DNA of 37,021 bases, taken from IMG/VR virus record IMGVR_UViG_3300039412_000813, positions 1 to 37,021 of that record. One strand, 5' to 3'. This DNA comes from a virus. This document shows, piece by piece, positions 1,884 to 17,648 of the stretch; position 1 is the stretch's first letter; every line of letters starts with the position of its first letter. The notes below the pieces were generated by a model. That model was not told the origin of the DNA. It did not search any database and was given only the letters and a program-made list of their open reading frames with translations. Both the position numbers and the translations under genes were made by a program.

Positions 1884-1886
1884 ATC

Positions 1887-2333
1887 ATGAATAACGTCGA
1901 ATTTAAGTCCGTCTGCCTGGCCGCCCTGGAATTGGTCGCCAAAAAAGAGGGGCGGCGCGATGTGCTTACCGCCGGGTCGGAAAACGACGTGTTCCTGAAA
2001 ATCGAGGCTTCAGTCGGCAAAAAAACCCTGCGCATGCAATCGGAGGCTCACGTCGCCGTGAATCATGACAGCACGCGGTTGGCTTCGTGGGCCCCGCCGC
2101 AAGCGCAGCTTATCGGCTATATTTTATCGCTTTTGACCAAGCGCAACCGGGAAATGCTATTGAAGGAACTGCCGGAAAAATTCGCCGCCGCCGGCAATTT
2201 GTTGCCCGACATCGACGCCGGCCTGGTGGAAGCGGCTGAGCAGCTCCTGCAGCGCCTGCGGGCCAAAATCCAACAGAACGTAAAAGGAACGGTCAGCACG
2301 TCTTACACTGTGCAAAAATGGGAAATTATTTAA
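1887..2333 (+). CDS. hypothetical protein, 148 aa
   Basis: The gene begins 3 bases after the HTH gene. The protein is soluble and mostly helical, with a leucine-rich C-terminal half (EAAEQLLQRLRAKIQQNVKG). No catalytic motif, cysteine cluster or membrane segment is seen. I do not recognise the family. The tight spacing suggests co-transcription with the HTH regulator. Confidence 0.65.
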   Translation: MNNVEFKSVCLAALELVAKKEGRRDVLTAGSENDVFLKIEASVGKKTLRMQSEAHVAVNHDSTRLASWAPPQAQLIGYILSLLTKRNREMLLKELPEKFAAAGNLLPDIDAGLVEAAEQLLQRLRAKIQQNVKGTVSTSYTVQKWEII

Positions 2334-2351
2334 GTAAAAAAGAGATTTACG

Positions 2352-2960
2352 ATGGCGGCATTGCTGGCAATACTGGCTGAAGTCTGGGGGTTTTTTAAAC
2401 CCCTTCTGTCCGCGCTTGTTGGCAACCAGTATTTTTGGATCATCGCTGGCACGGTGATTATCACGCTCATGATTACGAGCAAAGGCTGCGGCTGCCGGCG
2501 TGATAAACCGGTCCGCACGCAAACCATCTCCTGCGAAATCACCGACGTCCTGGACGGGGCGACGCTGACGGCTCGAGCCGGATTGCTGGGACGCAAAGAG
2601 CGCACTCTGCGCCTGGCCGGGATCGAGGCCCCGGGCCTGTCCGAACCCTTTGGGGCCGATTCTCAGGCGTCTTTAAAAGCATTGGCCGGAGACAAGGTTT
2701 CGGTATTGATCGAGGAAGGACGCGCAATCGGCTCCGGGGATATTTCCGGGCTGGTTTCCAGAGGGGGAAAATTGCTCAACCTCGAGCAAGTCAAGGCCGG
2801 CCTGGCCGCATGCAATTCCGACGCGCCTAAAGAGTGGATGGCCGCCCAGACGGCCGCCAAAAAACAAAATCTGGGAATGTGGGCCGGCGATAAAAAAGAA
2901 CACTGGTGGAACGTTCCACTGGGACGAAGCAACGAGAAAATTTTGGAGGCCATACAATGA
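2352..2960 (+). CDS. membrane-anchored SNase-like protein, probably inactive
   Basis: A hydrophobic N-terminus with a membrane segment at about 26-42 precedes a staphylococcal-nuclease-like OB domain (about 57-180). The domain is recognisable from TDVLDGATLTA, LRLAGIEAP, a GxxS-A-LKAL helix, LLNLEQVKAGLA and the C-terminal helix ending KKQNLGMWAG. Aligned by eye to staphylococcal nuclease, Arg35 is kept (R87), but Asp21 is Ala (A70), Glu43 is Gly (G95) and Arg87 is Ser (S132), so catalysis is probably lost and a binding role is more likely. The C-rich stretch KGCGCRR after the membrane segment is unusual. The stop overlaps the next start as ATGA, and a ggagg at 2945-2949 serves the next gene. 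Confidence 0.7.
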   Translation: MAALLAILAEVWGFFKPLLSALVGNQYFWIIAGTVIITLMITSKGCGCRRDKPVRTQTISCEITDVLDGATLTARAGLLGRKERTLRLAGIEAPGLSEPFGADSQASLKALAGDKVSVLIEEGRAIGSGDISGLVSRGGKLLNLEQVKAGLAACNSDAPKEWMAAQTAAKKQNLGMWAGDKKEHWWNVPLGRSNEKILEAIQ

Positions 2961-3295
2961 TTGCCGAGGCGATATATTCCGGCACGGCGTCGAACCTGGT
3001 GGGCATGCTCGTTTTAGGCGCGATTGCCATCGTGATTGCATATAACCTGGCCGTGAAATTCTGGCCGACGTTAAAATCCTCAGCGGTGGGGACAACGGTT
3101 GTAAGCGGCGAAAACTACACGGCCTACGAGGCCTTGGTGGTGATCGCCAAGCTCGAGCAAATCCAGGCCGATCCAAAGGCCGTCGAGGCGGTGCAATATC
3201 TTTTGGGCATGATTATGAACGCACCTGCGACTACATCCCAGCCGGTCGCAACCTCCTCGCCGGCGGCCGCCTCCAAAATTATGGGGGGCAAATAA
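2957..3295 (+). CDS. small membrane protein with Ala/Pro/Ser tail, 112 aa
   Basis: One membrane segment (about 12-34, NLVGMLVLGAIAIVIAYNLA) is followed by a helical soluble region (EALVVIAKLEQIQADPKAVE) and a low-complexity Thr/Ser/Ala/Pro tail. The start has ggagg eight bases upstream and overlaps the previous stop (ATGA); an in-frame ATG at 2906 lies inside the previous gene and lacks a site. No family is recognised. It is one of a string of single-pass proteins with overlapping genes, which suggests a membrane-associated complex or lysis module. Confidence 0.65.
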   Translation: MIAEAIYSGTASNLVGMLVLGAIAIVIAYNLAVKFWPTLKSSAVGTTVVSGENYTAYEALVVIAKLEQIQADPKAVEAVQYLLGMIMNAPATTSQPVATSSPAAASKIMGGK

Positions 3296-3296
3296 C

Positions 3297-3530
3297 GTGA
3301 ATTTATCGCTTTTACAAATCGGATTGCTGATCGCCGCCGGCCTGGGCGTGATCTGGTGGCTGCGCTCGAACACGGCCGCCGCGCCGACGGCTACGAACCC
3401 ACCGGCCGCGCCGCCGGCAACCGGCTCGCTGCAAACCGCGGTAGCCGCTTACCAGGTGATCGCAGCGTACCTAACCGAGGACGGCCTTGCCGACAAGGTT
3501 TGGCTAGCGATCAAACAGGCGAAGACATGA
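3297..3530 (+). CDS. small membrane protein, 77 aa
   Basis: The gene uses a GTG start two bases after the previous stop, with a G-run about 10 bases upstream. Residues 5-22 form a membrane segment (LLQIGLLIAAGLGVIWWL), followed by an Ala/Pro/Thr linker and a helical C-terminus. It resembles its upstream neighbour in layout (membrane segment, Pro/Ala linker, helix), so the two may be diverged paralogues or partners. Function is unknown. Confidence 0.6.
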   Translation: MNLSLLQIGLLIAAGLGVIWWLRSNTAAAPTATNPPAAPPATGSLQTAVAAYQVIAAYLTEDGLADKVWLAIKQAKT

Positions 3531-3718
3531 GCGACGAGGAACGTGAACTGGCCGCGATTGACACCGGTTATACCGCCGAACTGAGTGGCATGTTCCAAAC
3601 TATGTTCATCAACGCGGATACGGACGGCGTGGAAATCGCCGGGGCGCGTTTTGAAAAAGGCCTGAAGATCCTGCGGGAAGCGCGGCAAAAGGCGATTGAG
3701 ATCGTGAAAAAGACATGA
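3527..3718 (+). CDS. small helical protein, 63 aa
   Basis: This soluble, acidic, helical protein starts MSDEERELAAIDTGY and ends in a basic helix. Its ATG overlaps the previous stop (ATGA), and its own stop overlaps the next start in the same way, so it sits inside a translationally coupled chain. The in-frame extension back to 3356 overlaps the preceding gene and is rejected. No family is recognised. Confidence 0.55.
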   Translation: MSDEERELAAIDTGYTAELSGMFQTMFINADTDGVEIAGARFEKGLKILREARQKAIEIVKKT

Positions 3719-4155
3719 CGCAACAAAACAAAAACCTGCTGGTCGTGATTTTGCTGGGCTTGTGCGCAGCCGGTTTTATTTGGAATCCGGCCGTAACACT
3801 GCCGGATTGGATGCCCCACCCGACTCCGCAACAGATCCAGGTCGTAATCGTCCATAAAACGGCCGACGACCCGAAAATGCCGGCCGCGCAGATCGAGGCC
3901 ATGAATTCATCTGCCATAGACGCCTTTCTGACCGCAAAGGGCGATGATCCGGTGCAAAGGATCGATCCAAACGACATCAAGGATTATAGCGGCGCGGTCC
4001 CGGCCCGCTTCGCCCCGGCCATCGCCGCCATGACCGGCAAACAGCCGCCGTATTTATTCATTACCGCCAAGGACGGCAAGCTGCTCGCCGGCGAGCCTCT
4101 ACCGGCTGACGAAACAACTGAATTATCCTTTATCCAAAAATACACGGGAAAGTGA
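3715..4155 (+). CDS. membrane-anchored, possible thioredoxin-fold protein, 146 aa
   Basis: An N-terminal membrane anchor or signal (about 7-24, NLLVVILLGLCAAGFIW) precedes a domain exported or facing the periplasm. The C-terminal part, PYLFITAKDGKLLAGEPLP followed by a helix ending FIQKY, reads like the cis-Pro strand, hairpin and last helix of a thioredoxin fold. No CxxC is present, so a redox role is unlikely. It is followed by a second thioredoxin-like protein that does have CxxC, so the pair may work together. The fold call is tentative. Confidence 0.55.
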   Translation: MTQQNKNLLVVILLGLCAAGFIWNPAVTLPDWMPHPTPQQIQVVIVHKTADDPKMPAAQIEAMNSSAIDAFLTAKGDDPVQRIDPNDIKDYSGAVPARFAPAIAAMTGKQPPYLFITAKDGKLLAGEPLPADETTELSFIQKYTGK

Positions 4156-4162
4156 GGAACCA

Positions 4163-4792
4163 GTGAAATTCACGCGCAACGACGCCATTGTTTGTTTGAT
4201 TCCAATAATGGGATTGCTGGCCTTTTACTTATTGCTCGATCGGCCGCAGCCCAAGACCTTGCCGCCCCCGGAAATCGTTCTGCCGGCGCCGGATGTTCAA
4301 AAACCTGTGATTGCACCGGCAATTGATACGCCAAAAACGATCGAGAATCCCCAGCCCATTAAAATCGCCGATGTTCCCGAAAAATCAACCGTAACTGAGG
4401 TGAACGTCTTAGCGGCATTTGCCGATGCAAAGCCGAAAGCCGCAGGGGCGATGGGCGATTATTACGACGCCCTGTACAAGGCCCGGGCGCAAAAGGTAAA
4501 ACTCTTGCTTTTTTTTTACGGAGACGGCTGCCAGCCCTGCGCTTACATGAAGAAAAATGTCTTTCCCGATGGTCGCGTGAAAACCGCATTGGGCAAAGAC
4601 ATATTATTGCCCTTGCATTTGCCGGAGATGGCTGCGGTCAAGGAAGTGCCCGACCCGATGGTGGGCAATCGTGTTCCAACCCTGGTGCTGATCGATCCCG
4701 GCGAGAAAGAGGGCGATTCGCGAACGCTTGCCGAGCACGTCGGCGGCATGAACGTCAACCAATTCGTCCAGTGGTATTCCCAGAGAAAATAA
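4163..4792 (+). CDS. membrane-anchored thioredoxin-like protein with CQPC
   Basis: The gene has a GTG start with gagga just upstream. The protein has an N-terminal membrane segment (about 9-25), a long Pro-rich linker (27-75) and a thioredoxin-fold domain (about 95-205). The domain shows the redox motif C123-Q-P-C126 after a hydrophobic strand (KLLLFFYGDG), and the cis-Pro strand VPTLVLIDP (P172). This is the layout of periplasmic thiol-disulfide proteins of the DsbD-C/thioredoxin_7 kind. In a phage it could assist folding of disulfide-containing tail proteins or be part of an envelope-modifying set; that part is inference. It is followed after one base by a cysteine peptidase. Confidence 0.75.
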   Translation: MKFTRNDAIVCLIPIMGLLAFYLLLDRPQPKTLPPPEIVLPAPDVQKPVIAPAIDTPKTIENPQPIKIADVPEKSTVTEVNVLAAFADAKPKAAGAMGDYYDALYKARAQKVKLLLFFYGDGCQPCAYMKKNVFPDGRVKTALGKDILLPLHLPEMAAVKEVPDPMVGNRVPTLVLIDPGEKEGDSRTLAEHVGGMNVNQFVQWYSQRK

Positions 4793-4793
4793 T

Positions 4794-5588
4794 ATGCGGC
4801 CGATCATAATAGACGACTCCAACTATCGGGAAATTCTGCAATGGCACGCCGAGCAAGGCCATGGGTTCGGCCACCTGCCGCGCGTTTCGCGGGTGGGCGA
4901 ACTGGAAACCTCGCCGGGCAGATGCGCGCCGCTGCTGGCCGACAAGATACTGCTGATCGATGAAAAGGAATGGCCGGAGCGAATCAAGGAGATGACGGCC
5001 AAGAAACTCTGGCCGCAAGACAAATACGAAGCCGCCAGCGGCAAGGACAGCAACCAGGACGGGCTCGAATGGTGCTGGGCCTTCTCGCTTACAGAATGCG
5101 TGATGTACACCCGCGTTTGCGCGGGTGAAAAGCACGTTCCGCTGGCTGCCGAAAGCCTGGGTGGATCGGTCGGATACAAAAACCAGGGCAATTCGCTGGA
5201 TGTAGCCCTGGCCTATGCCATCAAGCACGGCATTTGCCGGGCGGATTTTATTCCGGCCCTATGCCGCGACCCGTCGAAATTCAAAACCGGCTGGGAACAA
5301 GATGCGCTGAATTACCGGCCCATCGAAGATGCAGTCTGGGACGGCGGCGGACAGGATTTGTGGGCCGAATTCGTTACCGCGCTTCTATCCGGGTATCCGC
5401 CCTATATAGCCTACAACTGGGCTGGGCACGCCATGATCGGCAGCAAGTTGATCCTCGATCCCAGCGGTGAGATTTGCACCTACACTCCCAATACTTGGGG
5501 CCCGGGCCAGGCCTGGACGCTGAAGGGCAAGAAAAAGGTGCCCGATGAACTTTACATCCCGCGAGTGATTACGTATTGCCAGAATTAG
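4794..5588 (+). CDS. papain-like (C1-type) cysteine peptidase
   Basis: All four papain-family landmarks can be placed in order: Gln88 in SNQDGLEW, Cys94 in EWCWAFSL, His212 in WAGHAMIG and Asn233 in TPNTWG. The lengths between them fit a compact C1A-like domain. No signal peptide or propeptide is obvious; the first 80 residues are polar and could serve as an inhibitory or targeting segment. Its place after membrane and thioredoxin-like proteins and before a holin-like gene suggests a role in lysis, envelope passage or virion processing. Target specificity cannot be read from the sequence. A start at 4794 fits, being one base after the previous stop. Confidence 0.75.
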   Translation: MRPIIIDDSNYREILQWHAEQGHGFGHLPRVSRVGELETSPGRCAPLLADKILLIDEKEWPERIKEMTAKKLWPQDKYEAASGKDSNQDGLEWCWAFSLTECVMYTRVCAGEKHVPLAAESLGGSVGYKNQGNSLDVALAYAIKHGICRADFIPALCRDPSKFKTGWEQDALNYRPIEDAVWDGGGQDLWAEFVTALLSGYPPYIAYNWAGHAMIGSKLILDPSGEICTYTPNTWGPGQAWTLKGKKKVPDELYIPRVITYCQN

Positions 5589-5600
5589 GAACGCCGAAAA

Positions 5601-5936
5601 ATGTTTTGGAAAATAGGATTGGGATTAGGACTGTTATTACTTGGAGCCGGAGAATTGCCTGTATCCACGAAGGTCGGCGATTATCTGCAATATGGTGCAT
5701 TGGGAATTTTATTTCTCTCGATCCTTTTGCAATATTGGCAAGCCGATCGGCGGGAAAAATCGAATAATAATTTCAACGATAAACTCCTGGCGCAACACGC
5801 AGCGGCGTTCAAAGGGTTTGGCGATTTAAAAAATCATTGCTCTGAAGTTCTGGCCCCTTATGCGGCCAAATCGGCTGCACGAAAGCGAAAACGTAGAAAT
5901 ATACATTCGCATAATAATGCCGATCCCGAGGGGTAA
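5601..5936 (+). CDS. two-segment membrane protein, holin-like
   Basis: Two membrane segments (about 4-17 and 28-45) are followed by a cytoplasmic-looking charged tail ending in a Lys/Arg run (ARKRKRR). Length, two helices and a basic C-terminus are typical of phage holins, which open the inner membrane for lysis enzymes. The neighbouring peptidase gene supports that reading, but holins have little sequence conservation, so it rests on topology and context. agga lies ten bases before the ATG. Confidence 0.55.
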   Translation: MFWKIGLGLGLLLLGAGELPVSTKVGDYLQYGALGILFLSILLQYWQADRREKSNNNFNDKLLAQHAAAFKGFGDLKNHCSEVLAPYAAKSAARKRKRRNIHSHNNADPEG

Positions 5937-6083
5937 ATGTATTTTTTCTTCCCCAAATATTTTCGCCGCGAGATCGAGGATGGAAAACCGTGCCGCGAGT
6001 GCAGGTATTTTAGGATTTTGCAAAAATGGCTCGAACTGGACCGGCCATCCAGCCCGGGCATCACGCTTTTAGGAGTAAACGCC

Positions 6084-6416
6084 ATGAAATATGACACGTT
6101 TGTAGCAAGTTGGTCGGTTCCGACCAACCCGCTGAAAGTCGCAAAGCGGGAAATCACCGTAACCATCGGAGCCAATCCGCCGATTGTCCAGGAGATCACC
6201 GACCTGGCCCAGACCGCCCTGCCGGCGATGACCGCCCCGGACGGCACTACGGTTACGGCCGCGATTCGCGATTGCAACATTGTGGGGACCTGGACTGATC
6301 CGGCTGTGACCACGACCGTTTTGGACGCCTCGGCACTCCCGGCGGACCAGCCGGCGACGCCGGTGATAACCGTTACCGCCGTGGCCGACGTCCCGGCTCA
6401 GGCAGATAATCAGTGA
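6084..6416 (+). CDS. small beta-rich protein, 110 aa
   Basis: The protein is beta-strand rich (REITVTIGANPPIVQEI, TTVTAAIRDCNIVGTW, PVITVTAVADV), like a single Ig-like or fibronectin-like domain, and ends with a short acidic tail. It may be a structural accessory protein. The start was chosen because aggag (6071-6075) sits eight bases upstream. The frame is open back to an ATG at 5937, directly after the previous stop, adding 49 residues with a CRECRYF motif; that longer form cannot be excluded. A terminator-like hairpin follows. Confidence 0.6.
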   Translation: MKYDTFVASWSVPTNPLKVAKREITVTIGANPPIVQEITDLAQTALPAMTAPDGTTVTAAIRDCNIVGTWTDPAVTTTVLDASALPADQPATPVITVTAVADVPAQADNQ

Positions 6417-6431
6417 ACGTAAGCTCTCCTC

Positions 6432-6494
6432 AAAATCCCGGCAGATAAAACACATCCGTGAAACTGCAACTAATGTATCTGCCGGGTTTTGATT
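6432..6494 (+). terminator. Rho-independent terminator
   Basis: cccggcagata (6437-6447) pairs perfectly with tatctgccggg (6476-6486), followed by TTTTGATTTT. The 28-base loop is long for an intrinsic terminator. Its place after the 6416 stop supports the end of a transcription unit. Confidence 0.5.
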
Positions 6495-6527
6495 TTAAGG
6501 AAAGACTTTTGGACGGAGGCATTTAAC

Positions 6528-6662
6528 ATGGCCGGATTGGACCCGATTATCACGCCAAACCCGAAACGGGTGAAGCCTGTAAAACGACCTCGGAGGCCAT
6601 ACAAGACCCGCGAGGAAGAGCGCGGACAGCCCGGAACCCGGAAGTCATCGAAACGTGTTTGA
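6528..6662 (+). CDS. small basic protein, 44 aa
   Basis: A strong ggagg (6515-6519) lies eight bases before the ATG. The product starts MAGLDPIITPNPKRVKPVKR and is extremely basic and Pro-rich (RRPYKTREEERG), with no fold that I recognise. Such peptides often bind nucleic acid. The excellent ribosome site argues that it is expressed despite its size. Confidence 0.5.
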   Translation: MAGLDPIITPNPKRVKPVKRPRRPYKTREEERGQPGTRKSSKRV

Positions 6663-6707
6663 ACGCAAATGGAGCGATTTTACGGCTGCCATTTTTGGTA
6701 AATTCAA

Positions 6708-6806
6708 ATGGATACAACCCATAAGAGCGGGAAAATCTGGAAACGATTGATTTTTTGGCTGGCGATTGTCGCCTATGCGATTTACGCCGGATTGGGCCAT
6801 GCGTAG
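6708..6806 (+). CDS. single-pass membrane peptide, 32 aa
   Basis: The peptide begins with a basic head (MDTTHKSGKIWKR) followed by one membrane helix (LIFWLAIVAYAIYAGLG). The positive-inside head plus one helix is a convincing small membrane peptide, as seen among phage lysis or envelope peptides. The ribosome site is weak (ggtaa nine bases upstream), so expression is uncertain. Confidence 0.35.
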   Translation: MDTTHKSGKIWKRLIFWLAIVAYAIYAGLGHA

Positions 6807-6845
6807 ATGATCGACATTTTGTAGATCGAGATCGAGGAAACAGAA

Positions 6846-7040
6846 ATGACGCCGCCTTTTGCACAGAAATCAGTGCCCGTGATCGATGAGCGATCGCCGG
6901 CGGAGTTGCGCGAGGAGCTGAAGCGGACGCAGGCGCTTTTAAACAACGTCCGCTGGTTCCTGGCGGGCGTCTGCGGCGCAGTCTGGCTCGATCCAGAAGA
7001 GATGATCGAGCGAATCGATAAAACATTGAAAGGCGAGTGA
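6846..7040 (+). CDS. hypothetical protein, 64 aa
   Basis: gagga lies about eight bases before the ATG. The first half is charged and helical (SPAELREELKRTQALLNNV), the centre is hydrophobic (RWFLAGVCGAVWL), and the end is an acidic/basic helix. It might associate weakly with the membrane. No family is recognised. It is the last small gene before the long tail-fibre gene. Confidence 0.5.
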   Translation: MTPPFAQKSVPVIDERSPAELREELKRTQALLNNVRWFLAGVCGAVWLDPEEMIERIDKTLKGE

Positions 7041-7052
7041 AAAAAGGTTAGA

Positions 7053-7069
7053 CCGATCCGCGAGATCGG
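7053..7069 (+). promoter_or_regulatory. hairpin in fibre-gene leader
   Basis: ccgatc (7053-7058) pairs with gatcgg (7064-7069) around a five-base loop, 19 bases before the fibre start codon. No T-run follows, so it is more likely a leader structure or an operator-like palindrome than a terminator. Confidence 0.25.
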
Positions 7070-7087
7070 GTAAAGAGTGATTGAGTA

Positions 7088-9622
7088 ATGTCCGGAACTG
7101 CCTATACCGCTGCTGCATCTGGTAATTGGAGTGCCACAGGAACATGGTCGCCTTCCGGTGTACCCGGTACCGACCCCGCTGACACCATAACTTCTCTCGC
7201 GGGCTACACCGTAACGGTTGACACCAGCCCGACGCTTACAAGTATTGCATTTTCGACAGGCTATCTATATTGCACGAGCACACGCACCATAACGCTTAGC
7301 GGCAACCCAGGATTAACGTACTCTGGAACAGATGTTGCGCATGGCGGCGTGCAGGTTTATAGCGGCGGAGTGCTTACAATCGCCGGTCCAGGTTCGGGTA
7401 CGCTCATTAGTATCACTGGCTCGGGCTGGGGAATTTATGTTAGCGGAACCGGGAGAATAAACCTAACTAATTCCGGTGGCACGGCATTAAACTGGACAGG
7501 ATCAAGCAGAGGATTATATTTATCGTCAACCTCTCCTTCCTTTTCCACAATATTCGGCAATGTTACAGGCCCAACCGCGACGGTTAATAATGGTGCGCTT
7601 CTTTATATAGACTACGGAAAATTATTACTAGATGGAAATTTGTCTTGTGGTTCAAATGGTACGCCGTCTGGGACATACGCTGTAGAGTTGGTTACCGGCA
7701 CAACAAGCTTTCAATGGGGCACAGGCACTAGCAAAACCTATACTTTAGCAACGGGATTGGAGTGTTATATTTATATTTGGTCTGGAACCCCTACCCTAAC
7801 GCTAACAGGCGTAACGCTTAATAATAGCGGAAGCTTTACAATAAGAAATAGTGTGGTCGGTACTACTTTTAACCGATCCAATTTTTCAGTAGTGAATCAA
7901 ACGGCTGTGGGGCAGGCTGCGTGTTTTGGTATGACTGCTTTTACTGTTACAGGCCCGACCGTTCCAGCAGCCACGGATGTTCGATCCGGCGTGGCTCGCG
8001 GTTATCCTAATGATAGTGGTGCAGCGGTGAGTGGCGGCGGGAATGTTGCTGGTTCGCTTGTTGGCGTTATCGATTCGGGCGGCACGCAACATAATTATGG
8101 TACATGCAGCAGTACGCAAGCCTGGGCAGCATCGGGCATCATCTACAGTTCCGGCACGTCGGCATCGACCGGAATCCTAAAAGACTCGACGCATTATTAT
8201 GCGACCGGAATTTTCGACGGCACGAATTACAATGCCAACGGCACACTATACGGCAACACCGGCAGTAATGGAACATACCACGCGACTGGGATCGTGTATG
8301 GAACGGGAACATACAGCTATCAGGCAACAACCGGCCTAAGCACAAGTCAAGTGCTATCGACCGTTACGACATGGTATGACGGCGATGGAACCCATGCGGG
8401 CAATTATTATGCAATCACTCAGGCCGACGCGAGAGCAAAAGGCGGCGGCTACTATGGTGTCGGCCAAGCTACGGACGGAACTTGCAATGTGCCAAGTCCG
8501 AACTATGTTTTATTTCCCGTTACAATAGATGCAACTTACGGATTATTGACTATGCCATCTGGCGCGGACGTGCAAGCCGATGCGGATAAATTTGGTATTC
8601 CTGGTTCCCTGACAACGCCAACTTATCCGACTACGGCCACAACCCAATCCGCTGACGCAACAGTGATAAGCAACAAGTTGGTTAATACCAATAATACCGA
8701 TACGTCGGTCACGATGGGAGCCTCTACCGCCTATATCCGGTCGCAGGCAGCTTATGGAACAATTTATGCAGCCGCCCAATCTGCTGATGCCTCTACACTA
8801 ACAGCTAAAACACTAAACGCCGATGGCACCGATACAACCGTGGGCTTTGGTGCATCGAACGGCACGGCGAAGTCGGGGGCGGTATTCACGGCAGGTCAAT
8901 CTAATCAATACACTACCGACCAGGCCGACGCTACCGCGAAGAAGATGCACCTTGACAACAACTATTCGATTGCCGGGATCACCGGCTCTTTGGACATGTC
9001 CACCTACGTTTTAAAGTCCGCCGTGGTTGATAAATCGCACGTCGATAGTCTTTATGAAAATTGGACCGGCAACGGCTACGGTTCGATTGTGATGGCCAAT
9101 TACGTTCTCAAATCGGCCGTAGTCGCCAAGGCACACGTCGATTCAAATTACGAGAACTGGACTGGGAACGGTTACGGCACACTTGATCTAAGCAATCTAG
9201 TTGTCGGCAACATCAAGAGCGGCGTTACTATTGCTGGCGTGGGGCCGGGGACATTCACGCATACAAGTGATTACACCTTGACCAGCGGCATAGTCTGGCC
9301 GACTCAGGCTCATGTAAATGCTGTGGAAACAGCTTGGGGGCCAACTGGAGCGGAATATCACGGCACGCTCGACATGACACTCTATGATTTCAAGAGCAAC
9401 TATACCGATCCCGGCAAAGCCTATGTTTTGACTGGCCATAACTACACCTATGCGGGCGTCTCGCAAACGGCAGCATATGCGGGTGGCGGCACCGACCCGA
9501 CCAATCTTTTAAAAATCGGGGACGCTGTTGAATCTGGCGTATTTGTAAAACGCTCAGGCAGCAGTACTCCGGCAACTTATGGGTGTACTCTACAATCCGG
9601 CGTAATAGTAGGAGCAGAGTAA
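7088..9622 (+). CDS. tail fibre or adhesin-like protein, 844 aa
   Basis: This is a long Gly/Thr/Ser-rich protein of beta-solenoid character. The N-terminus (SGNWSATGTWSPSGVPG) matches the pattern of surface and fibre proteins with right-handed beta-helix or G8-like repeats. The last third carries a 32-residue repeat starting YVLKSAVV at residues 640 and 672, with a diverged third copy from residue 729; the two close copies differ mostly at silent or near-silent sites. There is no signal peptide, as expected for a virion fibre. It overlaps the tailspike gene at TAATG, so both products probably assemble in one host-recognition structure. DNA here is more AT-rich than the head genes, fitting exchange of fibre genes between phages. 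Confidence 0.7.
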   Translation: MSGTAYTAAASGNWSATGTWSPSGVPGTDPADTITSLAGYTVTVDTSPTLTSIAFSTGYLYCTSTRTITLSGNPGLTYSGTDVAHGGVQVYSGGVLTIAGPGSGTLISITGSGWGIYVSGTGRINLTNSGGTALNWTGSSRGLYLSSTSPSFSTIFGNVTGPTATVNNGALLYIDYGKLLLDGNLSCGSNGTPSGTYAVELVTGTTSFQWGTGTSKTYTLATGLECYIYIWSGTPTLTLTGVTLNNSGSFTIRNSVVGTTFNRSNFSVVNQTAVGQAACFGMTAFTVTGPTVPAATDVRSGVARGYPNDSGAAVSGGGNVAGSLVGVIDSGGTQHNYGTCSSTQAWAASGIIYSSGTSASTGILKDSTHYYATGIFDGTNYNANGTLYGNTGSNGTYHATGIVYGTGTYSYQATTGLSTSQVLSTVTTWYDGDGTHAGNYYAITQADARAKGGGYYGVGQATDGTCNVPSPNYVLFPVTIDATYGLLTMPSGADVQADADKFGIPGSLTTPTYPTTATTQSADATVISNKLVNTNNTDTSVTMGASTAYIRSQAAYGTIYAAAQSADASTLTAKTLNADGTDTTVGFGASNGTAKSGAVFTAGQSNQYTTDQADATAKKMHLDNNYSIAGITGSLDMSTYVLKSAVVDKSHVDSLYENWTGNGYGSIVMANYVLKSAVVAKAHVDSNYENWTGNGYGTLDLSNLVVGNIKSGVTIAGVGPGTFTHTSDYTLTSGIVWPTQAHVNAVETAWGPTGAEYHGTLDMTLYDFKSNYTDPGKAYVLTGHNYTYAGVSQTAAYAGGGTDPTNLLKIGDAVESGVFVKRSGSSTPATYGCTLQSGVIVGAE
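9005..9375 (+). repeat. 32-codon repeats in the fibre C-terminus
   Basis: Copies begin at 9005, 9101 and, diverged, 9272. The first two share YVLKSAVV-x-K-x-HVDS-x-YENWTGNGYG; the third reads YTLTSGIV-x-x-x-AHVNAVETAWGPTG. Many differences between the first two are at third codon positions, so the repeat is kept at protein level. Confidence 0.75.
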
Positions 9623-12180
9623 TGGCAGATTTTATCCCGCGATACGAGTCTCAGTTATACGACATTGAATCCATCAGGAAGATGCGATACTGCCAAGAGC
9701 TATTCAAACGGTTTGCGATACCTACGCCGAAACGGCCTACTAGTTGTGTTGGGCATTGGAATTTCTTTGGCCTAGCTGGCGGTGCAACCACGGTTTACAA
9801 CAAGGCAACCGCGACGGCGGGGCGAAATAATCTCTTGGAAAGTTTTGCCACCTACAGCGGCAACAACAGCGGGGAGAGCGAACCGAGACTAAAGGATTTG
9901 CTTGCTTACACCGGGGCTGTGACCGAGAACACAGTGAATCTTTCGGATATTGGTCTAGGTTATTACGTTGCTGCCTTGCACTTGCCGACTAGTGCGTTTG
10001 TTCGCAATCAAGTGACTATTCCGGCATCAACATATACGCTTAGTGTTTTTGTCGTAATGGATACGTCGGCTACCCTGCAATCATCCGACGTGGGTGATCC
10101 AGCAAGTCACGCCATTGGTTTTTATTACAATGGTGCATGGGCGAGTACAACTGTTACAGCCGTGGCGGGCGTTACAAATGGTTATCGGCTAACGGCTGCG
10201 ATTACTGGCCACAATACCGCCGGGGATGAATGGCGTGTTTATGCCGGTTCAACTCGATCCTTCTCAGTTACGGGATGGATGATAAACATAGGGGATACTG
10301 CGGCGACGCCATTGACTTACGAAAAAACGCCCTACATGGACATGACGCTAGTAGGCTCGCCAACAATCGAGGCCGATGGCGTGACGTTCAATGGTACAAG
10401 CCAGTATGGCGTGACGAAACCCCATTTTATTCTGAATGATAACTGGACAGTGTTGGCCGTAGTTGAAAATCAAAATACCGACGGCACAACAAGAGTTTTA
10501 ATGTCAGTCGGGCAAATTGCTGATGCAAACCATCGAATAGATGTTGAATGTGAGGGGTCAGTATCTTCGCTAAATGCTGATGGTCAAGTTGATCCAAATG
10601 GTCATTCGATAGGTTTAAACATACCTATGCTTTATGCCTTGGAAGCAACAGCATCAGGCGTAAAGTTGAATAATTATGTAAGTGCAGCCAATGGAGCATC
10701 TACCTATGATACGATGCGTGGCCGTCTTTGCATCGGGGCGAGGGCAATCGACTTAGCGGTATTTTCTGGTCAAAAGGTTTCTGCCGTTATGGCTTTTGAA
10801 ACAACTTACTCCGCTCTTTCCCGGCAAGAAATGAGAGAGGCATGGTCTGTGATGTACCACGATCTGTTGACCGTGGGCATTGATATTAGCGTATCAATTC
10901 CTCCACTAATCACGGCAATACCTCGAAACAACGTAACAAAACCGATGATTCCTTTTTATCTTACTTGGGGTTTTTTAGGATCGAACCCAAGTGATGCTGC
11001 GATTAGACCTCAAGTTGCTGCTATGGCATCTTCTGGTTTAAGAGATGCTGGGTGGTCTTTGTTTGAAGTAGATGCCTTTGCATTTGAAAGTCGGGACGAG
11101 TCCAATCAGCTTGTGGCTGATCCAATACGTTTTCCAAATGGTTTTGACGCTGTAGTAGATTACATAAAAGCGAACGGAATGACTTATGGTTTTTATACAT
11201 CCGTTGGAAACCAGCCAGGAAGTGTTAATGGGGTTGGATGTTATGGGTTTGAATGGGAGGATGCCCGTTTTGCGGTAGTTCGGGATGCAAAATATGTAGA
11301 GGACGATTCTGTTACTTGGCCCTATGGGTATACCCGGCAGTTTAAAATCTGGCCCAACGATATTCAGGTTGAGTATTTCAGTAAAATGGGAACTGCCTTG
11401 TTGGCGCAAAGTCAAGATATTTTCTACAATGTTTGTGGGTGGAGTAACCAAAATGTTGCCGACTCGATGGAAACCCTAGCGATGAATTGTGGTGGTAATG
11501 GCTTACGATTTGCTGGTGATTCGGGTGTAGCAGATACTTGGAGTGGTCTAGTCACAACATTGATCTTTGCTCCCAAGACGCCAGAAACAGATGGTACATA
11601 TCACACAGATAAAATAAAGTATGTTGCACCAGGATTCCAATATGACCCTTCTACAATGCACGCCGGTGGGGGTAATCTAACACAACCAGAAGTGCAAACA
11701 GAATTTTCGATGTACTGCTTGTTGAAATTTGAACTTTACATCGGTTATGATATTGCGACCGATTGGAGTACCAACGGCACAAAGTCCGCAACGATCACGA
11801 TGTTGAAAAACGCCGACACCCTTGCGATTTACAACGATTCGCTCGGCCTGATGGGATTGCAAGTTACAAAGACGGCAGTGACGCATGGAGGTGGTGCAGA
11901 TTCTTATATCGAGGTTTGGGCTAAGCCTCTTGCAAACGGGAAATGGGCTATTGGATTATTTAATCGCGGTGCCTACGCTCATACGGTCACCGTCGCATGG
12001 TCGGATATTTTAGCAGCATTAACAGCTAAAGCTGCTTCGCTGCCTGCCGGTTATCCGACTTGCGAATTAAGCGGGGCTGTGAATGTAAAAGACGTTTGGA
12101 ACAATACATCCACAAGCTCTAACGGCTGGTCGGTAACAAATCTGGCAAGCCATGCTTGTGCCTTAATAATTGCAGGTTAA
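9622..12180 (+). CDS. tailspike with GH27-type glycosidase domain
   Basis: Domain order over 852 residues: a short head-proximal part (1-60), a carbohydrate-binding-like beta-sandwich (about 65-235), a LamG/concanavalin-like jelly roll (about 243-415), a GH27 (alpha-galactosidase-type) TIM barrel (about 440-715) and the GH27 C-terminal beta-sandwich (about 725-815). Diagnostic matches are GLRDAGWSLFEVDAF, DPIRFPNGFDAVVDYI, YNVCGWSNQN, and NGLRFAGDSGVADTW containing the expected acid/base Asp633. The C-terminal pattern LAIYNDSLGLMGLQV then EVWAKPLANGKWAIGLFNRG also fits. The nucleophile position falls in the acidic cluster 560-562 (E-D-D) instead of the usual Lys-Tyr-Asp, so activity needs testing. 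aggag (9610-9614) precedes the ATG, which overlaps the fibre stop. Likely role: binding and cutting a host surface glycan. Confidence 0.8.
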   Translation: MADFIPRYESQLYDIESIRKMRYCQELFKRFAIPTPKRPTSCVGHWNFFGLAGGATTVYNKATATAGRNNLLESFATYSGNNSGESEPRLKDLLAYTGAVTENTVNLSDIGLGYYVAALHLPTSAFVRNQVTIPASTYTLSVFVVMDTSATLQSSDVGDPASHAIGFYYNGAWASTTVTAVAGVTNGYRLTAAITGHNTAGDEWRVYAGSTRSFSVTGWMINIGDTAATPLTYEKTPYMDMTLVGSPTIEADGVTFNGTSQYGVTKPHFILNDNWTVLAVVENQNTDGTTRVLMSVGQIADANHRIDVECEGSVSSLNADGQVDPNGHSIGLNIPMLYALEATASGVKLNNYVSAANGASTYDTMRGRLCIGARAIDLAVFSGQKVSAVMAFETTYSALSRQEMREAWSVMYHDLLTVGIDISVSIPPLITAIPRNNVTKPMIPFYLTWGFLGSNPSDAAIRPQVAAMASSGLRDAGWSLFEVDAFAFESRDESNQLVADPIRFPNGFDAVVDYIKANGMTYGFYTSVGNQPGSVNGVGCYGFEWEDARFAVVRDAKYVEDDSVTWPYGYTRQFKIWPNDIQVEYFSKMGTALLAQSQDIFYNVCGWSNQNVADSMETLAMNCGGNGLRFAGDSGVADTWSGLVTTLIFAPKTPETDGTYHTDKIKYVAPGFQYDPSTMHAGGGNLTQPEVQTEFSMYCLLKFELYIGYDIATDWSTNGTKSATITMLKNADTLAIYNDSLGLMGLQVTKTAVTHGGGADSYIEVWAKPLANGKWAIGLFNRGAYAHTVTVAWSDILAALTAKAASLPAGYPTCELSGAVNVKDVWNNTSTSSNGWSVTNLASHACALIIAG

Positions 12181-12182
12181 AA

Positions 12183-12464
12183 ATGGCCAACACATTTCCA
12201 TTAAAATTCGGATTGGGTATTTCAGGTTTGACAACGGTGATAGCCGTAGTGAATGGTGGCGAACCAATCGCCCTGACCGAGTGTACCGTAGCGAAAGGCG
12301 ATTACTACGGGTCCGTTGCCGATCCGACATTGCCCGCCCTGGTTGAATATTCCAGCGGCGAATCAGTACCAAAAGTCGGGTCTGAAATACTTGTTGCCAG
12401 CATGGGGTCAGACTTCAAGGATGCTTCCGACAAATGGAATAACTACTTAATTTCAAATAGTTAG
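12183..12464 (+). CDS. small tail-associated protein, 93 aa
   Basis: The gene starts three bases after the tailspike stop and continues the fibre operon. The product is a beta-rich, soluble protein (MANTFPLKFGLGISGLTTVI at the N-terminus) with no recognised family. Position suggests a fibre chaperone, cap or small structural subunit. The ribosome site is weak (aggt), so coupling to the gene before it is likely. Confidence 0.6.
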   Translation: MANTFPLKFGLGISGLTTVIAVVNGGEPIALTECTVAKGDYYGSVADPTLPALVEYSSGESVPKVGSEILVASMGSDFKDASDKWNNYLISNS

Positions 12465-12466
12465 AC

Positions 12467-13153
12467 ATGGTATACGAAGTCAATCCTGACACTGTTTATG
12501 AAGTTGATCCGGCTTTGTACGTGCCTGGTCCAGGCGTTTTGACCGTGGCTGACCGCGGAGCTATAGCTTCATATCTTACAAGCGATTCTGGATTTATTCA
12601 GGCGGTTCAATCTGGTATTGCTACTCAGGCAACGGCAGAGGCGGCATACGAGGCCGCGGGAGCAGCGGCGGCGGCCGTGCAAGATGGGCATGTAGTATTA
12701 CCAACCGGAAATGACATTCCAACTGGATATGGAGGCGGACTGTCTGAACAAGATGCCGCGAAACTGAACACCATCCTTACCCAGGCATTGCTGATCTCCA
12801 GTGGTAAATTGAGCATTATCAATCCATTCCTGGCAGGGAAAGTTTTGGTTATTGTTAAAGACGACGATTACCTCGCGGACAAAGATCGGACAATCACCAT
12901 CCCCCCGGATGTTTGGATCGATCCGACCGGCGCCAATATAAAACTGCACTGTCTGGATTTGGAGTCGGAAAAGGATATCGTTATCATCGATGGCTCGGCT
13001 GATGCCGAGAAAGAACGATATAATTTTAATCCGTCCCAGGCCCAGACTTCTCTTCTGAAAAGAACCGGCATCGGCCATTATCAATGGGCCGTGAAATATC
13101 ATTACGACGCCGGGATGTTCACCATCTTGTTAGGTCCATTGATAGTTAAGTAG
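12467..13153 (+). CDS. tail or baseplate accessory protein, 228 aa
   Basis: The N-terminal part is acidic with a repeated VYEV-x-P motif (VYEVNPDTVYEVDPALYV). An Ala-rich helix (ATAEAAYEAAGAAAAA) follows, suggesting a coiled coil, and then a beta-rich C-terminal domain (KVLVIVKDDDYL, TITIPPDVWID, IVIIDGSA). This helix-then-beta pattern is common in proteins that attach fibres to the tail tip. Not recognised at family level. It closes the fibre transcription unit. Confidence 0.6.
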   Translation: MVYEVNPDTVYEVDPALYVPGPGVLTVADRGAIASYLTSDSGFIQAVQSGIATQATAEAAYEAAGAAAAAVQDGHVVLPTGNDIPTGYGGGLSEQDAAKLNTILTQALLISSGKLSIINPFLAGKVLVIVKDDDYLADKDRTITIPPDVWIDPTGANIKLHCLDLESEKDIVIIDGSADAEKERYNFNPSQAQTSLLKRTGIGHYQWAVKYHYDAGMFTILLGPLIVK

Positions 13154-13188
13154 CAATGTTAAGTGCAAAAATCTTCCTATAAAATTTT

Positions 13189-13205
13189 GGGTCCTTCGCC
13201 GACCC
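13189..13205 (+). promoter_or_regulatory. hairpin before the terminase genes
   Basis: gggtc (13189-13193) pairs with gaccc (13201-13205), loop cttcgcc. A TATAAA at 13178-13183 precedes it but has no -35 partner. The 104-base gap between the fibre and terminase genes holds nothing else clear. Confidence 0.2.
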
Positions 13206-13257
13206 TCCAACATGGACGGTTTGGGAGGTGCAGCAGCGATCTCAGTGAGTTTGTTTC

Positions 13258-13440
13258 ATGATTTACGAAGGTCTGACATCCCAGGAGTTAGCAGACTTAC
13301 TTTGCGACTCTGGGCTAGATGTCACATCTAAGGACATCGAAGAAGATATTCAAAATGGGGCTCCGGCGAAAAATGGGAAACTATCATTGCTTGCATACGT
13401 CGCATGGCTGATCAAGCGGGTCGATAATGGCAAAAAATGA
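13258..13440 (+). CDS. putative small terminase-like helical protein, 60 aa
   Basis: The protein is one helical domain: LTSQELADLLCDSGLDVTS, IEEDIQNGAP and LLAYVAWLI. The same pattern (T-x3-IE..., GP/GAP..., G-x3-LL-x-Y-x2-WL) recurs in the first 60 residues of the terminase encoded next. I recall an IE-DI-x-AGAP-x-N...AAWL pattern from planctomycete phage-like loci. A DNA-recognition role as small terminase subunit is inferred from position and from the shared domain. The gene overlaps the terminase start by 14 bases. Confidence 0.6.
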   Translation: MIYEGLTSQELADLLCDSGLDVTSKDIEEDIQNGAPAKNGKLSLLAYVAWLIKRVDNGKK

Positions 13441-15709
13441 TTTCACACGCCTGTGCATCGGCAATCTTTGCCGCCTTCTAAACAAATCTTCCACGGTCGG
13501 AAGAATCGAAGAAAGAGTCGTAAAAAAACATCGCGACGCCGCCGGTCCCAACATCGGCGCCCATGGCCGCATCGACCTCTTAAAATACGCCTGTTGGCTG
13601 CGCGGTCAGTTGCCCATTCACAAGTGGGCCGAGTCTAAAAAGAAAAAACAAAAAGACTCATCCGCCGATTACGAAACGATCAAAGAGAACGCCCGCGAGC
13701 GGAACGCCGAGACCAGCAAAAAAGGCCGCGACATCGGCGAACTGCCGGCGGTCCGCGATCCCGATCGCAAGGCCAAGGGCGGCGAGAGTCTGGCCTTTTT
13801 TTGCAAGGCGTATTTGCCCCTGATTTTCTTTTTGCCCTGGTCCAAAGACCACCGGAAGATCATAGCGAAGTTGGAGCGGATCATTCGCGGCAGCGGCAAA
13901 CTGGCCCAGGCCATGCCCCGCGGCAGCGGCAAAACAATGCTTTGTTTAGCTGCCAGTTTATGGGCAATTTTATATGGATATCGCCGCTTTGTATCGATCG
14001 TTGCCTCAAAGGCCGAAAAAGGCGAACAATTATTAGATTTTTTGAAAACATGGATCGAGACCCGCGAAGAATTGGCCGCTGATTTTCCCGAGGCGATTTA
14101 TGCCATTAGAAAACTGGAAAGAATCGCGGGCAGATTGAAGGGACAGCTCTATAACGGCGAACCGACAAGAATTGAGTGGAGCGCTGACAAAATCGTTTTT
14201 CCCACGATTCCCGGCAATCCTTCGAGCGGCTCGATAGTGATGACCTGTGGTTTGAAGGGATCAGATATTCGCGGCCAGGTCCATGCCTTATCTAGCGGAG
14301 AAGCCATTCGCCCGGACCTGGTTTTGCTTGACGATCCGCAGACCCGCGAATCTGCCTGGTCCGAGCTGCAATGCCGCCAGCGAGAAGCAATTATAGCAGG
14401 AGATGTTTTGGGTATGGCCGGCCCTGGCCACAATCTGGCAGCTATGGCTTGCGTCACTATTATTAGGCCCGACGACCTGGCTGACCGCCTGGTGGACCGC
14501 AAAAAGCACCCCGAATGGCAAGGGGAGCGGATGAAAATGGTGTATGCGTTTCCAAAGCGGGTCGAGTTGTGGGACCAGTATGCCCAGATTCTCCGCGACA
14601 GCCTGACCGGCGACGGCGACGGCAGCGCGGCGACCGAGTTTTATCGCCGGCACTTCGACGAGATGAACGAAGGCGCGGAAGTCGCCTGGCAGGAGCGCTT
14701 TGAACAACAGGAGATCTCCGGCCTGCAGCACGCTATGAACTGGAAGATCCGCGATGAAAAGCAGTTCCTTTCCGAGTGCCAGAACGAGCCGGCGCAGGAA
14801 AACCTGAACCTTGTCAACCGCCTGACGGCCTTCGAGATCTGCATGAAGCTCAACGGGCGCAAGGACCGGGATATACCGGCCAAATGCTCGCATGTAACGG
14901 GCATGATCGACGTTCATGACCGCCTCTTGTATTACACGGTTTGCCATTGGGAGGAGAATTTCGACGGCGGCTTGTGCATTTACGGCACCTGGCCCGAGCA
15001 GCCCTTGGCATATTTCACCCTGCACAACGCGCCCCAGGGCCTGGCCGACTTGTATCCCGGCCGTGGAAAGGACGGCCTGATCTTCGCGGGGCTGGAAGAG
15101 CTTATAAAACGATTATTGGCCGAGCGCTTCAAGCGCGACGACGGCGCTGAAATGCAGCTCGAGCGCCTGCTCGTAGATACCGGGTATGTGCCCACGGTCG
15201 TGGGCAACGTGATCCGCCTGATCAACAATCCGGTAGTCATGCCGTCGCGCGGATTTTCGATAAAGGCCGAGGGAAAACCGTTTGCCGAATACAAGCCCGA
15301 GGCCGGGGCGGTGATCGGCCATCACTGGCGGATCGCCCCGGCCCCGGCGATCAAGATGCGCACGCTCTTTATCGACGTGAATTATTGGAAGAGCTTTTTT
15401 GCCGACCGGCTGGCCACTCCCCTGGGCGACGCCGGCTGTTTTTCATTGTTCGGAAGCTCACCGCACAGGCATCAATTGCTGGCCGATCACTGGTGCTCGC
15501 AGATCTCCGAGCGGACATTCGGCCGCGGCCGCTGGGTTGACGTATGGATGCAGCGCCCGGAGCATTTTGACGATCACCTTCACGACACGGCCGTGGGCTG
15601 CGCCGCGGCCGCGTCCAGTCTTGGTTGCCGTTTGCCCGAATGGGGCGATTTTAGGCCCCGCCGGCGTGCGCAGAAAATATCACTCAACAGCATGTGGAAA
15701 AAATCATGA
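13427..15709 (+). CDS. terL: terminase large subunit with extra N-terminal domain
   Basis: This is the ATP-driven DNA-packaging motor. Residues 1-65 repeat the helical domain of the upstream small protein. The ATPase domain shows Walker A PRGSGKT (164-170) and Walker B LVLLDDP (298-304). The C-terminal nuclease-like domain contains candidate metal ligands in VTGMIDVHDRLLYY, LLVDTGYV and DDHLHDTAVG. At 760 residues it is longer than most large terminases, partly because of the added domain and a charged linker (about 70-115). It overlaps its neighbours at both ends, so packaging genes are translated together. The family call is firm; the boundary between ATPase and nuclease domains is approximate. 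Confidence 0.9.
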   Translation: MAKNDFTRLCIGNLCRLLNKSSTVGRIEERVVKKHRDAAGPNIGAHGRIDLLKYACWLRGQLPIHKWAESKKKKQKDSSADYETIKENARERNAETSKKGRDIGELPAVRDPDRKAKGGESLAFFCKAYLPLIFFLPWSKDHRKIIAKLERIIRGSGKLAQAMPRGSGKTMLCLAASLWAILYGYRRFVSIVASKAEKGEQLLDFLKTWIETREELAADFPEAIYAIRKLERIAGRLKGQLYNGEPTRIEWSADKIVFPTIPGNPSSGSIVMTCGLKGSDIRGQVHALSSGEAIRPDLVLLDDPQTRESAWSELQCRQREAIIAGDVLGMAGPGHNLAAMACVTIIRPDDLADRLVDRKKHPEWQGERMKMVYAFPKRVELWDQYAQILRDSLTGDGDGSAATEFYRRHFDEMNEGAEVAWQERFEQQEISGLQHAMNWKIRDEKQFLSECQNEPAQENLNLVNRLTAFEICMKLNGRKDRDIPAKCSHVTGMIDVHDRLLYYTVCHWEENFDGGLCIYGTWPEQPLAYFTLHNAPQGLADLYPGRGKDGLIFAGLEELIKRLLAERFKRDDGAEMQLERLLVDTGYVPTVVGNVIRLINNPVVMPSRGFSIKAEGKPFAEYKPEAGAVIGHHWRIAPAPAIKMRTLFIDVNYWKSFFADRLATPLGDAGCFSLFGSSPHRHQLLADHWCSQISERTFGRGRWVDVWMQRPEHFDDHLHDTAVGCAAAASSLGCRLPEWGDFRPRRRAQKISLNSMWKKS

Positions 15710-15942
15710 GCGGATCGGAACCGGTAAAATCGTACAACTGCCCCACGCCCGGCTGCCTGGGAAATCTTTGGGTCGTGCTCCGCACGGATCCTATCCCGCT
15801 GGAAAAGGGCGGCGGGATCCGCCGCGTCCGCCGCTGTTGCCGCTGCGATGCCCTGATCGAAACCTTTGAATTCGAGTCCTTTCCCGACGCCAAGATCCAC
15901 CCTGTGCCTTTAAAGGCGTATTTTCAAAGAAGGGATGTTTAA
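15706..15942 (+). CDS. small zinc-ribbon protein, 78 aa
   Basis: C-x4-C (NCPTPGCLGNL) and C-x2-C (RRCCRCDAL) motifs make a classic two-knuckle zinc ribbon, with basic residues between them (GGGIRRVRR). The start overlaps the terminase stop (ATGA); a GTG at 15694 would add four residues. A nucleic-acid-binding or adaptor role linked to packaging or late transcription is likely but unproven. Confidence 0.65.
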   Translation: MSGSEPVKSYNCPTPGCLGNLWVVLRTDPIPLEKGGGIRRVRRCCRCDALIETFEFESFPDAKIHPVPLKAYFQRRDV

Positions 15943-15943
15943 A

Positions 15944-16522
15944 ATGAGCAAGCTCGCAAAAGACATCATCAACGCCATCCCCGGCATCGAAAACAAGCGC
16001 TACCTCGAGCTGGGCCTGGGCCGCGGCGAGACTTTCAACGCCGTGCGGGCAAGATCGAAAATGTCCGTCGATATACAATACAGTCCCATGTTTCGCATGT
16101 CGACGGACGAGTTTTTCGCCATCTTGTCGGAAAACGTCCTTTTCGACGTGATCTTCATCGACGCCGGCCACGATTTCGCCAACGTCGTCCACGATTTCAA
16201 CAACTCGGTAGAACACCTGAGCATGGGCGGTTATATCCTGGTTCACGACCTTCTTCCTCCAGATGAAAGTCACACAGCCAGAGATTTATGCGGGGACGGT
16301 TACAAGTTACTGGCATATTTCATTGAAGAACGCATTGATGATTTACGTTCGCTTTATATGAATGATTTTGGTTTGACTGTATTTAAAAACCCAAATTCGA
16401 ATCAACCTTTGAGATCCGCACCAGAAGAGCGACTTGCGAATTATGTGAACATGAGTTTTGAGCTTTTTAATAATTTATTCAACTTTGAGGCATTATATGG
16501 AAAACTCAACCCACACATATAG
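15944..16522 (+). CDS. SAM-dependent methyltransferase, class I
   Basis: Motif I is YLELGLGRGETF (about 20-31), the acidic end of strand 2 is SVDIQ (D43), and strand 4 reads FDVIFIDAGHDF (D73), followed by the helix and YILVHDLLPP. This is the layout of the methyltransferase_24-type family, whose members often modify sugars or small molecules. The start was chosen because aaggg lies nine bases upstream; an ATG at 15935 abuts that site. It overlaps a glycosyltransferase gene by 26 bases, so the two probably act on the same substrate, such as a virion glycan or a modified base. Confidence 0.75.
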   Translation: MSKLAKDIINAIPGIENKRYLELGLGRGETFNAVRARSKMSVDIQYSPMFRMSTDEFFAILSENVLFDVIFIDAGHDFANVVHDFNNSVEHLSMGGYILVHDLLPPDESHTARDLCGDGYKLLAYFIEERIDDLRSLYMNDFGLTVFKNPNSNQPLRSAPEERLANYVNMSFELFNNLFNFEALYGKLNPHI

Positions 16523-17165
16523 GATCATGCTGGCCTGGCACCTTACCGATATTGCAAAGCAGTGCATCGCCAAACTCGAAGAACAAGACCTTCCGCACAC
16601 GCCGGTGTGCGGATTATTGGACCCGTCTTGTACGGCGCTCTGGAATCGTTGCGTCGAAAAATGTCCCACCGAGATCGTGATCATTTGTAACCAGAAGGCC
16701 CGGCCCACGCGGGCCAACGTGAATCGGCTGCTGGAATTGCTCGACGCCGGCCACGGCATAGTCGGCCTGCACCATTTCGGCTTTTTCGGCTTTTACAAGG
16801 AGGTTCTGCGCAGGATCGGGCTTTTCGACGAGCGCTTCGTGGGCGGCTGGTTCGAGGACAACGACGTCATCCTCCGCCTGCAGGAGGCGAACCTCTCGTA
16901 TTACGAGGCCGAAGAACTGGAGTACCTGGACGCCGGCAGCGCCTGGACCTGGGCAAAATCATTCGAGCATTTTAAAAACAAGTGGCGGTTGGGCCTGCAC
17001 GGCGGTGCGAAATATCTGAGAGCTTTGCCCGAATTGCCGCCGGCCTTTGATCTGGGGCCGTCGCAGCCGCGAAATTTCCTGCCCTGGTCGGCCAGCGTGC
17101 TCACGCCCATGCAGGGCCTGGTGACTACAAGCTGGGATCACGTCCATCCGTTGCTGGGCGTATAA
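16497..17165 (+). CDS. GT2-like glycosyltransferase, short form
   Basis: The C-terminal part of a GT-A fold is clear: GFYKEVLRRIGLFDERF (about 98-114), then GGWFEDNDVILRLQEANL with the acidic E120-D121-x-D123 cluster, and a strand ending EYLDAGS. The N-terminal nucleotide-binding half is short (MLAWHLTDIA, then EIVIICNQKARPTRANVNRL), so it is smaller than a typical GT2 enzyme. It could transfer sugar to a virion protein or to modified DNA. The start has gagg seven bases upstream; an in-frame ATG at 16458 is less likely. Confidence 0.7.
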   Translation: MENSTHTYRIMLAWHLTDIAKQCIAKLEEQDLPHTPVCGLLDPSCTALWNRCVEKCPTEIVIICNQKARPTRANVNRLLELLDAGHGIVGLHHFGFFGFYKEVLRRIGLFDERFVGGWFEDNDVILRLQEANLSYYEAEELEYLDAGSAWTWAKSFEHFKNKWRLGLHGGAKYLRALPELPPAFDLGPSQPRNFLPWSASVLTPMQGLVTTSWDHVHPLLGV

Positions 17166-17183
17166 TAAAAATCTCGCGCAACA

Positions 17184-17375: not shown

Positions 17376-17387
17376 GATGCTCTTGTT

Positions 17388-17645: not shown

Positions 17646-17648
17646 CTT

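Follow-up and report, generated by a model that had tools for sequence, protein, structure and literature searches.

Tailspike and tail-fibre depolymerases of the P22, K1F and KP32 type are encoded in tail operons, carry an N-terminal part for attachment and a C-terminal enzyme, and are exchanged as modules; their catalytic domain is mostly a beta-helix (PMC5380687, PMC6966330). As PMC5380687 describes, tail-spike genes are highly diverse and mosaic; a table there lists a phage galactosidase activity, reported in 1974 with no gene assigned to it. Some Acinetobacter phages have tail spikes with a TIM barrel and reported depolymerase activity, but these belong to another barrel group, with an InterPro transglycosidase domain in 4 of 313 proteins, and GH27 is not named there (PMC11823257). 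GH27 enzymes, such as those of rice (1uas), Nicotiana (6f4c) and Bacteroides (4nzj) and human GLA and NAGA, consist of a barrel and a sandwich, and use two catalytic Asp residues. We found no description of a GH27 domain on a phage tail in the literature. An enzymatic tailspike is a known kind of protein, and GH27 in this role appears to be new.

We analysed a stretch of 37,021 nucleotides (IMG/VR record IMGVR_UViG_3300039412_000813; hereafter the window), which encodes a protein, P0001, with a GH27 domain where known tailspike depolymerases have a beta-helix or endosialidase domain. We consider it likely that P0001 is a receptor-binding tail protein, either a spike or a fibre, whose GH27 domain would cleave a glycan of its host, itself likely a member of the Verrucomicrobiota. 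The open reading frame listed for P0001 begins earlier, with a GTG at 9583. We took the ATG at 9622 as the start, since its A is also the last base of the TAA that ends the preceding gene (TAATG) and AGGAG is found just 5' of it. The features of the locus are as follows:

9622..12180, plus strand: P0001, putative GH27-bearing tail protein, 852 aa, from ATG to stop (open frame and TAATG overlap)
9622..9975, plus strand: residues 1-118, N-terminal part, putative virion attachment (low-confidence model)
9976..10296, plus strand: residues 119-225, CBM-like beta-sandwich, the second 'sugar-binding-like' domain (model, strands 126-223)
10297..10896, plus strand: residues 226-425, putative LamG/concanavalin-like domain (sequence pattern)
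10909..11856, plus strand: residues 430-745, GH27 (beta/alpha)8 barrel (Pfam, phmmer, AlphaFold, Foldseek)
11857..12177, plus strand: residues 746-852, GH27 C-terminal beta-sandwich, Melibiase_C (Pfam, model)
11299..11301, plus strand: E560, replacing the Lys of 80/80 bacterial homologues (alignment)
11305..11307, plus strand: D562, predicted catalytic nucleophile, retained (alignment)
11518..11520, plus strand: D633, predicted catalytic acid/base, retained along with R629 (alignment)
7088..9622, plus strand: fibre-like protein, 844 aa, same operon as P0001 (putative fibre role, from repeats and composition)
12183..12464, plus strand: small protein gene immediately 3' of the P0001 gene, same operon (fused counterpart in the sister phage)
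12467..13153, plus strand: 228-aa protein at the right edge of the swapped module (comparison with the sister phage)
8260..12733, strand not applicable: module that L010, the sister phage, carries as a diverged allele (genome comparison)

A first-pass annotation had recognised the GH27 pattern through both the barrel and the C-terminal sandwich of the 9622-12180 product, and both profile searches and structure prediction bore this out. The two Pfam Melibiase families scored above their cut-offs, favouring GH27: Melibiase_2 at residues 466-712 (E 4.7e-11, 43 bits, cut-off 23) and Melibiase_C at residues 762-849 (E 9.4e-15, 54.9 bits, cut-off 22.9). phmmer against the PDB aligned residues 448-823 with rice alpha-galactosidase (1uas_A, E 9.2e-30). 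An AlphaFold model built with 81 relatives reached a pLDDT of ~90 across most of residues 440-852, with weaker loops, and contained a TIM barrel of the (beta/alpha)8 type followed by an antiparallel beta-sandwich. When this model was compared with the PDB using Foldseek, 1uas was the top match (E 4e-31, TM 0.89), and the best 39 matches were alpha-galactosidases and their GH27 kin. The similarity extends over the catalytic and C-terminal domains, as in the CAZy family GH27, and, judged by sequence and model, the C-terminal half of P0001 is a true GH27 barrel with its C-terminal sandwich. In a tree, P0001 was placed on a very long branch relative to all bacterial relatives; long branches were joined, and no donor of the GH27 gene could be identified.

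We examined the active site in an alignment of 82 rows, comprising P0001, its phage homologue from L010 and 80 bacterial GH27 proteins. Columns W449, D484, D562, R629, D633 and D675 were invariant. D562 and D633 therefore align with invariant columns as the two catalytic Asp residues of GH27, and R629 lies four residues before D633, as does an Arg before the acid/base in known alpha-galactosidases and alpha-N-acetylgalactosaminidases; the acid/base Asp is thus in the place first assigned to it. The nucleophile region reads V-E-D-D in P0001 and V-E-L-D in the sister phage. Because of this reading, and because its column is invariant, we take D562, and not D561, to be the nucleophile. The changed E-D-D cluster that had been noted here is real at the adjoining positions, with K560 replaced by E and Y561 by D, but the nucleophile itself is kept.

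P0001 departs from known GH27 enzymes at several other positions. K560, C533, W487 and C564 are each found in 80/80 bacterial rows, D677 in 79/80 and D485 in 77/80. In both phage proteins position 560 is E, 485 is A and C564 is replaced; W487 is A, C533 is G (P0001) or A, and D677 is S (P0001) or A. Both phages carry a three-residue insertion after the nucleophile, and they are identical at 13 of 16 active-site positions, changed ones included, as against 55% overall. Alpha-galactosidase specificity is recognised by an Asp-Asp pair on beta-strand 2, a Lys two residues before the nucleophile and the Asp of an NDPDM motif, all of which are altered in P0001 (D485A, K560E and D677S). We take the E560 column to be that of K168 of the human enzyme and, by the alignment, the changed columns presumably correspond to contacts to the galactose hydroxyls in human GLA and NAGA. 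Position 606 is Gly in P0001 and Glu in most of the relatives listed; by the same mapping, G606 is presumably comparable to the small residue through which NAGA can accommodate an N-acetyl group. As read from the alignment, the -1 subsite has lost several galactose-holding contacts, and the substrate would therefore probably be a different or modified host-surface sugar rather than a plain alpha-galactoside.

Since P0001 differs at many GH27 positions that are otherwise conserved, it may be only weakly active or inactive. A spike whose barrel has become a non-catalytic lectin, binding a glycan without cutting it, would also fit the absence of several active-site residues that are otherwise invariant (K560, D485, D677 and C533). 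However, the two catalytic Asp residues and the Arg have survived in both phages although the proteins have diverged by 45% and synonymous sites are saturated, and a lectin would have no need of the Asp pair. We regard such a lectin as quite unlikely, and favour a barrel that cleaves its glycan.

Unlike known GH27 enzymes, P0001 is fused to ~430 residues of tail-type domains. The first-pass annotation had seen two sugar-binding-like domains in this N-terminal half, of which one fared better than the other. The sandwich at ~119-225 was modelled with a pLDDT of 50-80, mostly ~70, but the LamG-like part (226-425), recognised by its sequence pattern, had a pLDDT below 50 in the full model. Pfam lectin families gave no match at cut-off in the N-terminal half, the best being Lectin_leg-like over residues 226-425 (E 0.13, not significant), and this half folded alone had a pLDDT of 33. 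The two phages agree best over residues 226-425 (64%). Lectin-like domains at the N-terminus of P0001 are plausible. For residues 1-118 we found no family match, tail-attachment domains included; the best matches of the first 66 residues of the sister protein were to tail-fibre proteins and repeats, but at E 2-3, a hint only. In 388 Verrucomicrobiota genomes, N-terminal domains of the P0001 type (~430 residues) did not accompany any GH27, and only residues ~440-840 matched.

From the overlap of their codons, the P0001 gene is predicted to be translationally coupled to the fibre-like gene upstream (7088-9622), and the genes at 12183 and 12467 each begin two bases past the preceding stop codon. 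The four genes (7088, 9622, 12183 and 12467) form one tight operon leading to the terminase gene at 13427 (phrog_38). The P0001 gene is thus the third gene before the terminase gene and lies in a structural region of the kind that holds tailspike genes, next to a putative fibre gene. Promoter and terminator scans gave no more than chance.

A sister phage, L010, part of a 44.7-kb IMG/VR contig, is collinear with the window. Identity was 98.6% (9-4224), 95.9% (4109-8259), 99.93% (12734-25706) and 99.4% (25645-35720); toward the right end there are more variable stretches. Between the 95.9% left flank and the 99.93% right flank, from 8260 to 12733, the second half of the fibre-like gene, the GH27 gene and the 5' part of gene 12467 are replaced; the C-terminal 139 aa of the gene 12467 product are 100% identical in the sister phage, and its N-terminus is swapped. 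The GH27 protein of L010 is 55% identical to P0001 and shares K560E and D485A with it. Synonymous sites between the two GH27 genes are saturated (ps 0.77) and dN is 0.37, which indicates that the alleles are old, diverged and under strong purifying selection. A recent exchange of a receptor-binding module would explain the replacement, and allelic exchange between close phages is among the marks of a tailspike gene. A tail position of P0001 has indirect support in the operon with a fibre-like gene, the apparent lack of a signal peptide and the module swap between near-identical phages, and its place in the virion is presumptive.

A soluble cargo glycosidase (an auxiliary metabolic gene), derived from a bacterial alpha-galactosidase and either released on lysis or intracellular rather than carried in the virion, is an unlikely alternative on these data. 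It would account for bacterial GH27 enzymes being the only relatives detected beyond the sister phage, and the same genome holds another sugar-enzyme-like gene, GH130-like, at 23782-24657. That gene is, however, 99.7% identical in the two phages, in contrast to the GH27 gene, so cargo-like genes there behave otherwise. A crude hydrophobicity scan detected no evident signal peptide in P0001, unlike the hydrophobic N-terminal stretch found in 61/80 bacterial GH27 homologues. The N-terminal ~430 residues, missing from the verrucomicrobial GH27 proteins, the coupling to a fibre-like gene and the swapped module likewise argue against cargo and for a tail protein.

The window is a metagenome-derived contig, and a bacterial GH27 gene might have been joined to a phage contig during assembly. 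A second contig has the 3' part of the GH27 gene and the downstream genes at 99.95%, the third (L010) has a diverged homologue at the same place, and in both phages a single frame runs through the N-terminal domains and GH27. Such an artefact is largely refuted by L010 and L001, and we give it hardly any weight.

How rare such a tail protein is was assessed in several collections. tblastn against 50,697 phage records gave no comparable phage GH27 and matched only bacterial-looking contigs. In three of these (MT836088, MT837193 and MT835685) the neighbours of the GH27 gene are transporters and regulators of bacterial type, further glycosidases or SusC/D-like genes, and the contigs appear to be bacterial sequences wrongly labelled as phage. 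No relatives of P0001 were detected among annotated phage spikes. The BFVD viral models held no comparable phage GH27; the sole full GH27 fold there, A0A2P0VP48 of Tetraselmis virus 1 (E 1e-27, TM 0.85), resembles that of P0001 but belongs to a giant algal virus, where it is a separate enzyme of 356 aa with no tail domains. Pattern scans of IMG/VR (pair, barrel, LamG part and mixed alignments), which depend on a handful of short patterns and can overlook distant members, returned only the sister phage and a single host gene adjacent to a prophage; the latter, the GH27 of L007, carries a signal peptide and sits apart from the phage genes of a Bacteroidetes-type prophage contig. The 'alpha-galactosidase' of JH01 (PMC8228385) was rejected as a GH27 tail protein, since the match covers 93 residues of a capsid fibre 112 aa long, which is not enough for a barrel. 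The earlier view that an alpha-galactosidase-type TIM barrel is unusual in a tail is fair but needs qualification: GH27 seems new, but TIM-barrel spikes are known from Acinetobacter phages (PMC11823257), which P0001 resembles in its presumed tail location.

Beyond the terminase gene, the window has genes for portal, capsid/protease, head decoration, neck and tail chaperone, indicating a long-tailed phage, probably siphovirus-like and temperate. The extension past the window on a second, near-identical contig has integrase-like and replication-like genes (our own reading, made without a library scan). We compared the terminase with Verrucomicrobiota and Acidobacteriota genomes. Relatives at 39-46% identity were found in Verrucomicrobiota, where 42/338 genomes had a match of any strength; Acidobacteriota gave weak matches in 5/297 genomes, none as close, and were set aside as hosts. 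The host is an uncultured soil-type bacterium and, between the two phyla compared, likely one of the Verrucomicrobiota. This label for the relatives rests on G025 being a member of the Kiritimatiellaeota, which GTDB places within Verrucomicrobiota. In six verrucomicrobial prophages the position directly before the terminase gene was not occupied by spike genes, so that synteny with them is uninformative on the spike. In an IMG/VR contig, L018, a gene close to the terminase gene may be beta-helix-like (Beta_helix, E 0.054, a weak match). The frequency of the terminase family in Verrucomicrobiota (L121-L128) suggests a large, poorly described prophage group.

Several other genes were noted. The GH130-like gene lies between head and neck genes and encodes a protein like the five-bladed propellers of the mannoside-phosphorylase family (Pfam PF04041, E 1.3e-14, 54 bits, cut-off 26); it had no match in the 50,697 phage records and was not present in the retrieved portions of the other loci with related terminases. 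Its product may decorate the virion or be a second enzyme acting on glycans. Methyltransferase-like and glycosyltransferase-like genes occupy 15935-17165, between terminase and portal (PHROG E 1.7e-6 and 2.8e-6), and 20448-23237 encodes a 929-aa product, apparently a fusion, with matches to both the head maturation protease and the major head protein family. A staphylococcal-nuclease-like protein with an N-terminal membrane segment is encoded at 2352-2960. A 45-bp tandem repeat encoding YRAANREKVAEANRR-like units is present at 1-316 and in L153, with more copies in the sister phage, and a leucine-rich-like repeat (LDLRGLTSVPDNFKLPD) is found on the near-identical contig L008, past the right end of the window.

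We propose that the N-terminal ~420 residues would attach P0001, perhaps as a trimer or other oligomer, to the tail and/or bind a host glycan. The C-terminal barrel would then cleave a glycosidic bond in that glycan by a retaining two-Asp mechanism, with D562 as nucleophile and D633 as acid/base, and the altered -1 subsite would direct it to a different or modified host-surface sugar. We are evenly divided on the fuller claim, that P0001 is the first phage receptor-binding protein with a GH27 domain, with its -1 subsite retuned to a non-galactose verrucomicrobial sugar and evolving by allele exchange.

Verrucomicrobiota are rich in polysaccharide enzymes, and to our knowledge little is known of how phages recognise them. 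If true, a GH27-fold spike would widen the known set of depolymerase folds, known GH27 enzymes acting on terminal sugars, and would point to an unknown surface sugar of Verrucomicrobiota. P0001 would also offer a natural GH27 with a changed subsite, in two alleles, 55% identical, for comparison.
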